A DNA stretch of 33,202 bases from Bacteroidota bacterium (GTDB lineage: Bacteria > Bacteroidota > Bacteroidia > Chitinophagales > Chitinophagaceae). Below are positions 4,720 through 24,719 of the stretch, one piece after another. How positions within the stretch are numbered: the first letter of the stretch is position 1; each line of letters opens with the position of its first letter. The stretch is from contig JAFDXI010000103.1 of the NCBI GenBank assembly GCA_018268035.1, positions 1-33,202 of the forward strand. The letters run 5' to 3'. Under the pieces are notes generated by a model. It was given only the letters and a program-made list of their open reading frames with translations. It ran no database searches and had not been told where the DNA came from. The position numbers were made by a program, and so were the translations under genes.

Positions 4720-6018
4720 ATGGGAATCAAAACCAGGACATGCTTTTTATTTGCTAGCGCTTTTTTCTTTATCCATTCATTACAGTCACAGGTCTTATCC
4801 AACAGAGGAGTAAATTTAAACATCAGGCAGCAGATCACTTTCAACGGATCAGACAACTGGGAAATGGGTGTGAGTTCAGGCCTTTCTTTTAGTTTAAAAA
4901 ATAATGAAGCCAATTTATTTCGTGGCTATGGTATCGGTACAAAAATGTTTGGCAAATATTATTTTGGAAAACTTGGTATTTCAGCTACCACCGGTTTATT
5001 ATCCGGCTCCATCAGCACAGATGCAATCAATAATTTCAGTAAAGAAAGGGAGCTTAACAAGGATGATATTCAAGTTGTAAAAGGCAACCCGCAAAATGGT
5101 TATTTTCTTGTTGGACCTTCATTGCGTTTTGGTGGCAGGTTTGCAGTGAATGCTGAATTGCAGGCTGGCCTGTTTATGAATAATCCAGGCACAGTGGACA
5201 TTTCAATGAAAGGCAGCGACCGAGCTATATATCGTTTTGATAACGGAGGTAAGAATATTTTCCCAGGTTTCTCAGGTAGCATTGGTATCAATTATTCAAT
5301 TGGTACTACAACCCGCATTTTTATCACTGCAGATTACCTGCAATCAAAAACTTCTATCAATTATCTTGATATGAAAAATGGTTTTGATATTGCAACGAAA
5401 TTGAATCGCGATGTGAAAATAATGTTTGCGGGAATCGGTGTTATTAAAACATTTGGATGCGGCCGCAAACAAATCGAAAAGAGATTGGCCGTTATAAAAA
5501 ATGAAGATAGCAACCTCAAAAATGATTATACGGATGAAAAGCAATCAGCACAAGATTATAAATCATCTCTTCCCGGTAAAATTTATTTCTCTATAGGTAC
5601 AAACGGCGCCATTGCGGGTGAGTTAAATACAGATGAAAAAAGTAATTCATCACCAGTTAAAAGTTATTTGATAATTGGAGATGATGGCACACTCACAGGC
5701 AAACTGAATGCGCAGGATTTTAATACTTGCAGGAACAACCATGTAAGAGGGATGGGTTTTACCACTCATTCGCAGAATAATTCATTAACTGATGCACAAT
5801 TAGCAAACGATAATAATGCACCAACATTAGGTAAGGTTTATTTTTCAGTCAGTGAGGACGGCGCCATTGCGGGTGAGTTAAATACAGATGAAAAAAGTAA
5901 TTCATCACCAGTTAAAAGTTATTTGATAATTGGAGATAATGGCACACTCACAGGCAAACTGAATGCGCAGGATTTTAATACCTGCAGGAACAACCATGTA
6001 AGAGGGAATGGAAAATAA
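4720..6018 (+). CDS. Outer-membrane barrel-like protein with a duplicated C-terminal module
   Basis: A 432-residue exported protein. The signal peptide is residues 1-23 (hydrophobic LFASAFFFIHSLQSQ). Residues about 25-250 show alternating beta-strands with aromatic and glycine-rich turns (GYGIGTKMFGKYYFGKLGI, GPSLRFGGRFAVNAELQAGL, GFSGSIGINYSIG) as in outer-membrane beta-barrel domains of Bacteroidota. After a polar linker come two copies of an about 58-residue module, roughly residues 287-345 and 372-430, with a period of 85 residues. Each contains GAIAGELNTDEKSN, YLIIGD and GTLTGKLNAQDF and ends in CRNNHVRG. The two copies are almost identical at DNA level, implying recent duplication. The function is unknown; the barrel assignment is by pattern only. 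Confidence 0.75.
   Translation: MGIKTRTCFLFASAFFFIHSLQSQVLSNRGVNLNIRQQITFNGSDNWEMGVSSGLSFSLKNNEANLFRGYGIGTKMFGKYYFGKLGISATTGLLSGSISTDAINNFSKERELNKDDIQVVKGNPQNGYFLVGPSLRFGGRFAVNAELQAGLFMNNPGTVDISMKGSDRAIYRFDNGGKNIFPGFSGSIGINYSIGTTTRIFITADYLQSKTSINYLDMKNGFDIATKLNRDVKIMFAGIGVIKTFGCGRKQIEKRLAVIKNEDSNLKNDYTDEKQSAQDYKSSLPGKIYFSIGTNGAIAGELNTDEKSNSSPVKSYLIIGDDGTLTGKLNAQDFNTCRNNHVRGMGFTTHSQNNSLTDAQLANDNNAPTLGKVYFSVSEDGAIAGELNTDEKSNSSPVKSYLIIGDNGTLTGKLNAQDFNTCRNNHVRGNGK
5603..5752 (+). repeat. Copy 1 of a 150-bp in-frame direct repeat
   Basis: This segment matches 5858-6007 with about two substitutions in 150 bases (GATGATGGC versus GATAATGGC, and ATACTTGC versus ATACCTGC). The offset is 255 bases, exactly 85 codons, so reading frame is kept. 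Outside these bounds the flanking copies diverge more strongly, although the protein module continues upstream (GKIYFS versus GKVYFS). Confidence 0.95.
5858..6007 (+). repeat. Copy 2 of a 150-bp in-frame direct repeat
   Basis: Second copy of the segment at 5603-5752, ending four codons before the stop codon of the barrel-protein gene. The near identity at DNA level suggests recent duplication or gene conversion rather than protein-level selection alone. Confidence 0.95.
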
Positions 6019-16339: not shown

Positions 16340-17848
16340 TTAGTTAATTACAAAACTCATGTTGCCATCTTTTTCATCTTTCAGTTGTATGCCGATAGCT
16401 TGTAAATCATTCCTGATGCGGTCACTGGTAGCATAATCTTTTTTAGCACGGGCATCTTTGCGCAATTGAATAAGCATATTAATAATACTTTCCATTTTGT
16501 TGTCGCCTGTTGTGATATTTAATTGCAATCCGAGAATATCTTCAATATACAGTTTCATATTTTCCTGTAATAATCTCAAGGTGTCAGCGTTTAAAGCATC
16601 GGCAGCAATGTGTTTGTCTTTAATACCGTTGATGATGGGAACCAGTTCAAACATATTCGCCAGAATTTTTGCTGTGCTGAAATCATCATTCATGAATTCT
16701 TCAAACTCAGACAGGAGCTTCTGCACTTTGTTGTCGAGGTTTTTATCTGTTGCCGGATGGTTGTTGCCTGGTGTTAATTTTTTCAGGTTAGTAAAAGCTT
16801 CGCTCAATCGTTTCAATCCTTTCTCACTTGCCTGTAAGGCTTCATTACTGAAATCGAGTGTGGAACGGTAATGGGTTTGTAAAATAAAAAACCGAATCAC
16901 CATCGGATGGTAAACCTGCTCCAGCAGTGGATGGCCACCATTGAACAACTGCGTCAATGTGATAACGTTGTTATAGCTTTTCCCCATTTTCCTGCCATTG
17001 ATTGTAATCATATTGTTATGTATCCAGTAATGTGCAGGCACTTTATGATTGCATACATTGCTTTGTGCAATCTCACATTCATGATGAGGAAATTGCAGGT
17101 CCATTCCGCCACCATGAATATCAAATTCCTCTCCGAGATATTTTGCACTCATGGCAGAACATTCAATGTGCCAACCGGGGAAACCTTCACCCCATGGGCT
17201 TTTCCATCGCATGATGTGTTCAGGTGGTGCATTTTTCCATAATGCAAAATCTGCTGTATTGCGCTTTTCCTCCTGGTTGTCAAGATCACGGGTGGTAGCA
17301 ATCATTTCATCCAACACCCTTCCGCTCAACATTCCATAAGGTTCACCTTTTTTAGTAAAATCAGTATTGTATTTTGTGACATCAAAATAAACAGAGCCAT
17401 TCACCACATAAGCATAACCATCTGATATAATTTTTTCAATCATCACGATTTGTTCAACGATGTGACCGGTAGCTGTAGGTTCAATTGACGGGTCAAGGTT
17501 GTTCAACTGCTTCATCGCCCAATGATAGAGATTGGTATATTTCTGTACCAGCTCCATTGGCTCCAGCTTCTCCAGCACTGCTTTATTTGAAATTTTATCT
17601 TCGGCAATGCGGCCTTCTTCTTCAAAATGTCCGGCATCAGTAATGTTGCGCACATAACGAACCTTGTATCCAAGATGCATGAGCCAGCGAAAAACAATAT
17701 CAAACGTAACATAAGGGCGTGCATGGCCCAAATGACTTTCTCCACTCACTGTTGGCCCGCAAACATAGAGCCCGACATGGCCGGGAGTTATTGGTGTGAA
17801 AATTTCTTTCTCTCTTTTTAATGAATTATATACTTTCAGTTCACTCAT
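16340..17848 (-). CDS. cysS: Cysteinyl-tRNA synthetase
   Basis: A 502-residue class I aminoacyl-tRNA synthetase that charges tRNA-Cys with cysteine. The signature motifs are present: [20 protein letters not shown] (HIGH motif as HLGH at 39-42) and the KMSKS loop as KMGKS (287-291, [10 protein letters not shown]). The zinc site that selects cysteine is complete: C30, C230 (HIECSAMS), H255 and E259 (FPHHECE). Length is normal for the family and the C-terminal helical anticodon-binding domain ends in [22 protein letters not shown] rather than KMSKS is a tolerated variant. The gene stands alone on the minus strand. Its product is what a cysteine attenuator such as that at 23897-24025 would sense indirectly through charged tRNA-Cys. 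Confidence 0.97.
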
Positions 17849-23870: not shown

Positions 23871-23878
23871 TATATTTG
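23871..23878 (+). promoter_or_regulatory. TATATTTG -7 box of the cysH leader transcript
   Basis: An exact TAnnTTTG match 19 bases before the leader-peptide ATG. A TTTG at 23854-23857 lies upstream, but the 13-base spacing is shorter than usual, so the -33 element is uncertain. Transcription would start near 23885 and give a short 5' leader before the uORF. Confidence 0.55.
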
Positions 23879-23896
23879 ATGCCGGAAATAAAAAAT

Positions 23897-23968
23897 ATGT
23901 ATAGCCTTTCTTCATTTTATTGTTGTATGTGTGTTATAATCTCTTGCAGGAAGGATATACTATTGTAA
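23897..23968 (+). CDS. Cys-rich leader peptide (23 codons) upstream of cysH
   Basis: A short ORF from ATG 23897 to TAA 23966-23968. Cys codons are at positions 9, 10, 12 and 17 (Tyr-Cys-Cys-Met-Cys..., then Ser-Cys-Arg-Lys-Asp), so 4 of 23 residues are cysteine in a genome region where Cys is scarce. It begins about 12 bases after the expected transcription start, is followed by alternative RNA hairpins and a terminator, and precedes a sulfate assimilation gene. The layout fits a ribosome-stalling leader that senses charged tRNA-Cys, by analogy with amino acid attenuators such as trpL and hisL. A role for the peptide itself is not implied. The ORF is read directly; its function is inferred. 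Confidence 0.7.
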   Translation: MYSLSSFYCCMCVIISCRKDILL

Positions 23969-24002
23969 TCAAATAATCATCGAGTCAATAAATATAGCCT
24001 TC
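23950..24002 (+). promoter_or_regulatory. Antiterminator pairing of the cysH attenuator
   Basis: GAAGGATATA (23950-23959, in the last part of the leader ORF) can pair with TATAGCCTTC (23993-24002) at 9 of 10 positions, with one A-G mismatch. The 3' half is the same strand that makes the terminator stem, so the two structures exclude each other. A ribosome stalled at Cys codons 9-12 would leave the 5' half free and allow this pairing; a ribosome reaching the stop codon would cover it. Confidence 0.6.
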
Positions 24003-24025
24003 TACATCAGGAAGGCTTTTTTTTT
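23996..24025 (+). terminator. Intrinsic terminator directly upstream of cysH
   Basis: AGCCTTC (23996-24002) and GAAGGCT (24011-24017) form a 7-bp stem with an 8-base loop, followed by nine consecutive T (24017-24025). It lies only 31 bases before the cysH ATG and after the leader ORF, so it fits an attenuator rather than the terminator of the upstream permease gene. Confidence 0.85.
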
Positions 24026-24056
24026 GATTAAGATTAATCATAGAAAAAATTTTGTT

Positions 24057-24719
24057 ATGACTGTTGAACAAATTGCTGATAAGATAAAACTGTATAAACA
24101 ACTTGGTTTAAAGCTGTTCACTACATCATCTTTTCAAACCCACAGCGTGGTGTTGTTGCACATCCTGAGTAAAATTGATAACAGCATCCCGGTATATTTT
24201 ATGCATACCGGTTATCATTTTCCTGAAACATTAAAATACAGGGATGATATAGCAAAACTTTTTGACCTTAATGTGATCAGTGTGTTTTCTTCTACTGCAA
24301 AAATCAACCAGCGAGACAGTAATGGCAGGTTGTTATTTGCCAGCGACCCAGATTTGTGTTGCCATTTAAATAAAGTTGTTCCTCTTGAACCAATACTGGC
24401 ACAATTTGATGTTTGGATAAATGGTGTGCGGGCTGATCAGGGCGAGGTAAGAAAAAATTTTAAGGTTGAAGAAAATGCAAAATTCGGTACCATAAGGTTT
24501 CATCCGATGCTTGACTGGACAGGCAAAATGATTTATGCATACCTGCGTGAAAATAATATTCCGCATCATCCGCTGGAAGATAAAGGTTACTTCAGTATTG
24601 GCTGTGAGCCCTGCACCCGTAAATGGGATACCAGCAATATGGAATCACGTGATGGCAGGTGGTATGGTTTGAAAAAATCTGAATGTGGTTTGAATACAGA
24701 ACTTGTAGAAAAAAAATAA
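24057..24719 (+). CDS. cysH: Assimilatory APS/PAPS reductase
   Basis: A 220-residue enzyme that reduces adenylylsulfate (APS) or its 3'-phosphate to sulfite, an early step from sulfate to cysteine. ATG 24057 is chosen over a TTG eleven codons upstream that lies in the terminator T tract. The four [4Fe-4S] ligands typical of APS reductases are present: C101-C102 (DLCCHLNKVVPL) and C183-x-x-C186 (GCEPCTR). The catalytic cysteine is C210 in the usual ECGLN tail. FTTSSFQTHSVVLLH is the PP-loop-like nucleotide site, and VRADQGEVR is typical. The iron-sulfur cysteines favour APS over PAPS as substrate. Expression is probably controlled by the Cys-leader attenuator just upstream. No other sulfur genes are in the window. 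Confidence 0.93.
   Translation: MTVEQIADKIKLYKQLGLKLFTTSSFQTHSVVLLHILSKIDNSIPVYFMHTGYHFPETLKYRDDIAKLFDLNVISVFSSTAKINQRDSNGRLLFASDPDLCCHLNKVVPLEPILAQFDVWINGVRADQGEVRKNFKVEENAKFGTIRFHPMLDWTGKMIYAYLRENNIPHHPLEDKGYFSIGCEPCTRKWDTSNMESRDGRWYGLKKSECGLNTELVEKK

Follow-up and report, generated by a model that had tools for sequence, protein, structure and literature searches.

A 23-codon, cysteine-containing leader upstream of cysH in a Parafilimonas genome (Bacteroidota; Chitinophagaceae) is very likely a transcription attenuator through which the translating ribosome senses the supply of charged tRNA-Cys. The reading draws on the parts of this leader, found in a stretch of 33,202 nucleotides (hereafter the window), on their conservation in related genomes, on covariation in the terminator and on the behaviour of the RNA in folding calculations. 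To our knowledge, the regulation of sulfur assimilation in Bacteroidota has been little described.

Results

An earlier note on this DNA, made from the letters alone, had proposed a cysteine attenuator at 23871-24059. Re-checking the sequence of this region located every element that it had described, namely a -7 box, a 23-codon ORF with its Cys codons, a stem, nine T and a competing pairing. All elements lie on the plus strand. The box TATATTTG (23871..23878), verified directly in the sequence, fits TAnnTTTG, which we take to be the Bacteroidota-type -7 consensus, and on this basis we call it a putative promoter box. The same box stands 6-18 nt upstream of the leader ATG in all nine Parafilimonas leaders for which upstream sequence is available, so the predicted 5' UTR is short or nearly absent; a TTG 15-25 nt upstream of the box is present in only two of the nine. 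The leader-peptide ORF (23897..23968; MYSLSSFYCCMCVIISCRKDILL, then a stop codon), which is conserved in four related loci (L033-L036), has Cys at codons 9, 10, 12 and 17. The candidate sensor codons are Cys9, Cys10, Met11 and Cys12 (TGT TGT ATG TGT, 23921..23932), and the Cys17 codon is at 23945-23947.

In the minimum-energy fold, the window leader forms two main hairpins. The first, absent from the earlier description, lies inside the ORF and pairs 23905-23911 with 23948-23954; adding it completes a four-segment attenuator, with the pairings 1:2, 2:3 and 3:4 of the classical layout. Segment 1 (23905..23911), recognized from this fold and from the conservation of the 1:2 helix, is the partner of segment 2 when no ribosome covers it. 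Segment 2 (23948..23959) pairs, according to folding, either with segment 1 or, as antiterminator, with segment 3 (23993..24003), which is at once the 5' arm of the terminator and the 3' arm of the antiterminator. In the 2:3 pairing, GAAGGATATA (23950-23959) can pair with TATAGCCTTC (23993-24002) through five and four pairs flanking one A.G mismatch. Segment 4 and the U-run (24010..24025) make up the 3' arm and tail of an intrinsic terminator, supported by the sequence, by the minimum-energy fold and by the conservation of the helix. The terminator arms are 23996-24003 and 24010-24017 and contain the AGCCTTC/GAAGGCT stem first noticed; the nine T (24017-24025) end 31 bases upstream of the ATG of cysH (24057). 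The candidate regulated gene, cysH (24057..24719), encodes a (P)APS reductase by profile matches to NCBIfam NF002537 (222 bits, cut-off 154) and TIGR00434 (177 bits, cut-off 165) and to Pfam PF01507; its CC and CxxC motifs presumably indicate the iron-sulfur APS reductase type. A cysS-like ORF, named by eye, lies elsewhere in the window (16340-17848, minus strand).

The window leader folds better than its dinucleotide shuffles (z = -2.8; 3 of 200 shuffles equal it). Under a loose rule (ATG ORFs of 6-45 codons on both strands, with at least three Cys making up at least 12%), 23 of the 828 small ORFs in the window are Cys-rich, nested starts being counted apart, and the window leader, with its two nested starts, is the only one among them that has a terminator in the next 75 nt. 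A Cys-rich ORF alone is not rare in the window; an ORF together with a terminator is. Conservation, more than the ORF alone, which is modest evidence by itself, makes the case for a putative attenuator. The 23 Cys-rich ORFs could be taken to mean that a short Cys-containing ORF happens to lie next to an ordinary terminator; this is exceedingly improbable, given that the arrangement is conserved in the genus, that a covariance model finds the leader again before sulfite reductase and that the counts across the class lie far above those of shuffles.

The Cys codons and alternative helices, on whose conservation the proposal depended, recur as it had supposed. Eight genomes of Parafilimonas are in the set and six have a matching cysH; leader and terminator are found upstream of it in five of the six, the window included, and also before a sulfite-reductase operon in five genomes. 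The remaining cysH genome, G107, has a cysH of the window type, with no leader upstream and no covariance-model match. The four other cysH leaders are MYNPSSICCCMCNMIFQKKEILL (L004/L033), MNNLSSMCCCMCNISFRRRIMLL (L005/L034, P. terrae), MYNPSSICCCMCNLILQKKETIL (L006/L035) and MYNPSLICCCMCNMISREKENLL (L008/L036), where L033-L036 denote the same genomes as L004, L005, L006 and L008; in L005 and L008 the gene upstream of the leader differs from that in the window. Over the ten leaders known from both positions, Cys9 and Cys12 are invariant and Cys17 is confined to the window leader, which agrees with the earlier choice of the early cluster as the sensor, while the residues behind the motif and the length of the ORF (19-26 codons) vary. 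The invariance of Cys9 and Cys12 might also be read at the level of protein, since short Cys-rich peptides can bind metal: the peptide itself would then sense a metal or thiol, and its Cys would matter as residues and not as codons. We consider this highly unlikely, because what follows the motif is variable in sequence and length, because both candidate regulated units belong to sulfate assimilation, and because leaders built in a comparable way exist for His before hisG and for Thr/Ile before thrA.

Several observations on cysH loci stand apart from the leader. In L008/L036, the frame of cysH continues at its 3' end into transposase-like sequence (a 382-aa ORF, named by eye), which reflects an insertion or an assembly chimera. 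A contig titled as a Bifidobacterium breve MAG (L039) carries a cysH 67% identical to that of the window and is probably a mislabelled bin. An element that recurs upstream of cysH in L009 and L011-L014, GTGCGACGCAA, has no Rfam match at cut-off. In other genera, an operator-like palindrome, CTAC-N7-GTAG, lies about 50 nt upstream of window-type cysH at four of six loci (L009-L012), and none is present in the six Parafilimonas cysH loci; it looks as if a repressor did the work of the attenuator in those genera.

A covariance model built from the five cysH leaders was run on 394 genomes of the family Chitinophagaceae; in this and the later model search eight candidates per genome were scored under strict filters, so that absence elsewhere is no proof. 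Below E = 1e-6, the model returned ten matches, the five training leaders and five new ones, all in six of the eight Parafilimonas genomes and in no other genus. Four of the new matches are in G331, G178, G007 and G304, and the fifth is a further locus of the window's own genome (G000:C123:6-152); all five lie upstream of one operon, cobA/cysG-C - cysJ - cysI - cysG-N, which encodes uroporphyrinogen-III C-methyltransferase, a CysJ-like flavoprotein, the CysI sulfite-reductase hemoprotein and the CysG N-terminal siroheme synthase. Families were assigned by profile search on the own-genome copy, where the CysJ match (533 bits) is below the model cut-off (668), and by ORF likeness at the other four loci; four of the five loci extend through all four genes, the contig of L120 (G304) ending within cysJ. 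A terminator stands behind each of the five leaders (MFNPSSMCCCMCNISLRGR, MYNPSSICCCMCCCISLRGRKLYCN, MFNPSSLCCCMCYISTGKELVLR, MYNPSFICCCMCMEPLRRRKLYCYC and MYNLSSMCCMCCMSQLRRGLYCCYLT). The window genome thus has two copies of one device, and with the same device upstream of cysH and of the siroheme/sulfite-reductase operon, two steps of sulfate assimilation would share one cysteine sensor. At E 0.1, 170 of the 394 genomes matched; four matches inspected beyond the ten strongest (L122-L125) have no Cys uORF, and G230 has a second, weak match (E 0.0096).

In the alignment of the ten leaders, pairing reaches 97.8% in the terminator helix, where five of nine pairs show two-sided changes, and 91.1% in the 1:2 helix, where one pair does; pairs of the terminator covary. 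The covariation score of both helices is higher than that of any of the 500 shuffles or the six slid versions, in a test that favours structure because the alignment was fitted to the covariance model; the number of pair types shows no excess over shuffles (257/500). Taken leader by leader, the real pairing of the window is equalled by 47 of 500 shuffles for 2:3 and by 33 of 500 for 1:2, and in L121 that of 1:2 is equalled by 102 of 500.

At equilibrium, the full-length RNA shows no switch: the terminator wins in all five cysH leaders whatever the position of the ribosome, so the switch must be kinetic. The kinetic test used transcripts cut before segment 4, with a ribosome whose footprint reaches from 15 nt before the A site to 12 nt past it. 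With the ribosome on the first two Cys codons, 2:3 forms with P 0.98-1.00 in all ten leaders, in line with the claim that a stall on the early Cys codons frees the antiterminator. The companion claim, that a ribosome at the stop codon suppresses the antiterminator, holds in eight leaders (P 0.00-0.33) but fails in L118 and L120, which keep the 2:3 pairing (0.97-1.00). A stall at Cys12 gives P of at most 0.49 in seven of the ten leaders, and a stall at Cys17 of the window leader, which had been predicted to cover segment 2, abolishes 2:3; the first cluster codons are therefore the likely sensor. In the absence of a ribosome, P for 2:3 is 0.71-0.99 in seven leaders (0.92 in the window) and 0.02-0.45 in L033, L117 and L119; the 1:2 hairpin is well paired over the ten leaders, yet the ribosome-free cut transcript favours 2:3 in seven of them. 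As modelled here, folding tells a ribosome on Cys apart from one that has reached the stop codon; in seven of the ten leaders, however, it does not tell it apart from the ribosome-free state, and for those seven it points to read-through of an untranslated leader. Variants of the footprint, computed for a ribosome whose A site holds the second Cys codon, indicate that switching depends on the ribosome footprint assumed: with 18 nt upstream, P for 2:3 at the stop codon is at most 0.37 in nine leaders and L120 is without a switch; with 12 nt, the window leader switches poorly (0.56/0.18) and L034, L036, L118 and L120 are without a switch.

A second covariance model, built from the ten leaders and run on 395 genomes of the class Bacteroidia, gave 26 weak matches outside the window genome. 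Among them were three Cys leaders upstream of sulfite reductase in other families (L169, L170 and L173), one His leader, one Thr/Ile leader, two few-Cys uORFs by a thioesterase-like gene and 19 others. The His leader (MNTLAINMHHHHYFCA, then stop; L178) and the Thr/Ile leader (MYNSTIIITIIITTGRNLAEE, then stop; L185) are each followed by a terminator and, by eye, by hisG and thrA, respectively. At L166 and L168, which belong to two genomes, acyl-CoA-thioesterase-like genes, also named by eye, lie behind uORFs with two or three Cys (MCRCAHSLQGEDMS and MNFLKHNCILCYKWVIQSGRV, each ending in a stop codon) and a terminator.

We then surveyed sulfite-reductase genes directly, with the protein of L170 (nitrite/sulfite reductase domains, from G610) as query against 295 class genomes. 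Matches were obtained in 77 genomes and 66 upstream regions were analysed, the 11 omitted, which include that of the window's genome, being CysI-type matches of partial length or distant likeness. By the class rule (an ATG uORF of 6-45 codons in which three Cys stand side by side or three Cys make up a share of at least 12%), 26 of the 66 regions have a Cys-rich uORF, compared with a mean of 2.32 and a maximum of 8 in 100 rounds of dinucleotide shuffling, so under this loose rule chance would account for about two of the 26; the other 40 regions have none by the rule. A run of three Cys occurs in the uORFs of 18 regions (shuffles: mean 0.17, maximum 2), and a three-run of any other residue in at most two. 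Related genomes are not independent, and these shuffle statistics ignore kinship. The 26 uORFs, three of which (in G424, G602 and G610) were first found by the covariance model, span 16 family codes, and 24 of them, from 15 family codes, have a terminator behind (for example MCMCMCMCCCMRGDSGDLYSS, MCCMMCCCPRGMEMSC and MCYMCCCCMRMRKGYVDR). Both Cys codons, TGT and TGC, are used within 24 of the 26, which argues that the amino acid is kept and not a DNA repeat. Among the 23 leaders that could be folded (L253, which contains N, was excluded), 20 pair segment 3 upstream more when the ribosome is on Cys than when it is on the stop codon, with a mean P of 0.78 on Cys, 0.53 on stop, 0.54 for shuffled and 0.73 for free RNA, so that here too folding sets Cys apart from stop but not from the ribosome-free state; at least 95 of 100 shuffles fall below the real leader in 16 of these 23 remote leaders, and seven fall short. 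Left uncounted are L206, L208, L211, L213, L216, L218 and L221, where a terminator and a short ORF with one or two Cys codons are seen by eye; the upstream pieces of the CysI-type matches L255-L259 yielded one weak candidate.

A tRNA- or metabolite-binding RNA, such as a T-box or a SAM-type riboswitch, could also control a terminator placed, as here, with its leader before a sulfur gene, the ORF then being there by chance. We give this next to no weight. In 2.1 kb around the window leader, at E up to 1, Rfam yields only Phe_leader (25 bits; cut-off 55), and at cut-off it yields nothing in 13 related loci, a set that covers all but one of the five second copies and three of the 26 leaders at sulfite reductase; moreover, the conserved part is the ORF with its Cys codons, and no conserved RNA core was found outside it.

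The other cysH type of Chitinophagaceae (30-36% identical; 237 matched genomes) is associated with uORFs of another design. We examined 58 of these 237 genomes, the 18 best matches and 40 chosen mostly one per genus. Eighteen have a uORF with three Cys in a row in the 300 nt upstream of cysH (100 shuffle rounds: mean 0.21, maximum 2; next residue Leu, with 6), for example MQHFLHKYRISRQCCC, MLFASTSLNQFPCCCC and MFSNSFIKCMQPCCCC, each followed by a stop codon; in some loci cysH lies close behind another gene, so the 300 nt there are no promoter region. In all 18 (L023, L024, L026, L029, L031, L049, L057, L059, L061, L062, L067, L069, L071, L072, L073, L075, L080 and L081) the last Cys is at most two codons from the stop, at 36-134 nt upstream of cysH, and none has a terminator behind the uORF; the family thus includes a design that does without one. 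In mycobacteria, polycysteine leader peptides were reportedly described by Canestrari in 2020. By analogy, the window leader might act on translation, with a ribosome speed that depends on Cys altering access to the start of cysH and with an incidental terminator. The 18 terminator-free uORFs near cysH are in keeping with such an action, but we think it unlikely for the window, where the Cys cluster sits halfway along the ORF, away from the stop, and where, as behind all ten Parafilimonas leaders, there is a terminator whose helix carries the two-sided changes described above.

A palindrome of the form CTAC-N(5-8)-GTAG was considered as a mark of the polycysteine uORFs and rejected, being present in 4 of the 18 loci with a uORF and in 6 of the 40 without. 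At L024, L029 and L031 a cysD-like ORF, named by eye, lies downstream of cysH. For cysH at class level, we took 30 of 128 matched genomes, 28 of them with 350 nt upstream; the loose rule gives a Cys-rich uORF in four, of which two are Chitinophagaceae and one of these was already counted (L135 = L075). The sulfite-reductase locus L117 of Parafilimonas has both designs in tandem: a polycysteine uORF (MQTTTSMRCMCCCC, then stop; 5901-5945, minus strand) stands behind the Cys attenuator, 67 nt upstream of a cobA-like gene.

Discussion

Returning to attenuation, the scheme that we favour for the window leader is as follows. RNA polymerase would start just behind TATATTTG, and a ribosome would load almost immediately on the 23-codon leader. 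When cysteine is ample, the ribosome would reach the stop codon and cover segment 2, so that 3:4 would form and transcription would stop before cysH. When cysteine is scarce, the ribosome would stall at the early Cys cluster and cover segment 1, leaving segment 2 free for the emerging segment 3; with 2:3 formed, there would be no terminator and cysH would be transcribed. The scheme thus predicts use of the promoter, translation of the leader, stalling, termination and a cysteine response. Since relatives have the same arrangement before cysH and sulfite-reductase genes, the leader probably turns on sulfur assimilation at cysteine shortage.

The classical trp, his, phe and thr attenuators consist of a leader peptide with regulatory codons and of segments that pair as 1:2, 2:3 and 3:4, and the Parafilimonas leaders share this construction. 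They have an ORF with codons for the end product behind a putative promoter, a terminator recognizable by sequence in ten of ten, genes of the pathway of the sensed amino acid downstream, and an antiterminator that by folding forms in ten of ten with the ribosome at Cys and is suppressed at the stop codon in eight of ten (nine of ten with the 18-nt footprint). They differ in the amino acid, which would be cysteine, and in the -7 box 6-18 nt from the ATG, with its predicted short or near-absent 5' UTR.

The excerpts of PMC8632094 considered here describe one candidate class of cysteine attenuators with an intrinsic terminator, uORFC-8-2, found before cysS in Rhodobacterales, which combines a tandem-Cys uORF with the terminator and for which stalling at uncharged tRNA-Cys is proposed to lead to read-through. 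Tandem Cys codons, intrinsic terminator and proposed tRNA-Cys stalling are, on the evidence of these excerpts, common to both. According to the same excerpts, however, uORFC-8-2 belongs to Alphaproteobacteria and to a tRNA synthetase gene, with tandem Cys usually at codons 14 and 15; the Parafilimonas leaders belong to Bacteroidota and to sulfate-assimilation genes, have their Cys at codons 8-12 and stand before two operons of a single genome, and the window leader is followed by cysH instead of cysS. In the sections consulted, actinobacterial cys operons have leader peptides with Cys runs and no conserved terminators (PMC1262725), and in Mycobacterium smegmatis a Cys uORF regulates downstream translation by cysteine availability (PMC9031893). 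As far as those sections go, the window leader resembles these in having a Cys-codon uORF upstream of cys genes, but is unlike them in that theirs have the Cys run near the stop and no conserved terminator, whereas the window has Cys at codons 9-12 of 23 and a terminator; the second Chitinophagaceae design, with its 18 of 58 uORFs, is the one that resembles the actinobacterial leaders and has the polycysteine form of the mycobacterial ones. Within the same phylum, the portion of PMC9723704 at hand reports leader-peptide attenuation before amino-acid biosynthesis operons in Flavobacterium psychrophilum, with pheA and hisG among the conserved 5' elements, a likeness to our leaders; that section names neither a cysteine nor a sulfite-reductase case. 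No Cys attenuator in Bacteroidota was found in the portions of PMC7366714, PMC2965389 and PMC4833913 considered, nor among the literature matches listed, so that an earlier report may exist.

Judged from sequence, the arrangement is real and probably widespread and its mechanism of a known kind, with a predicted response to cysteine. What seems to be new is the pathway sensed in Bacteroidota, the control that two operons would have in common and the extent of the distribution. Beyond Parafilimonas, it is rather likely, though less so than the reading of the window leader itself, that Cys-codon attenuation is a general, uncatalogued control of sulfur in the class Bacteroidia and comes in two designs. 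In this view, one is the leader with a terminator, which stands before sulfite reductase in Parafilimonas and in 24 regions from 15 further family codes and, in Parafilimonas, before cysH too; the other is the polycysteine uORF that lacks a terminator and precedes cysH in other Chitinophagaceae. A lineage may exchange one of these designs for the other or for a palindromic operator.

A cysteine sensor that works through codons, placed upstream of the genes for APS/PAPS reductase and sulfite reductase, would offer a direct, testable mechanism for their control and would add leader peptides that are missing from Rfam. Bacteroidota mostly lack Shine-Dalgarno initiation, and an attenuator of this kind would also bear on how ribosome and RNA polymerase are coupled in such a phylum.
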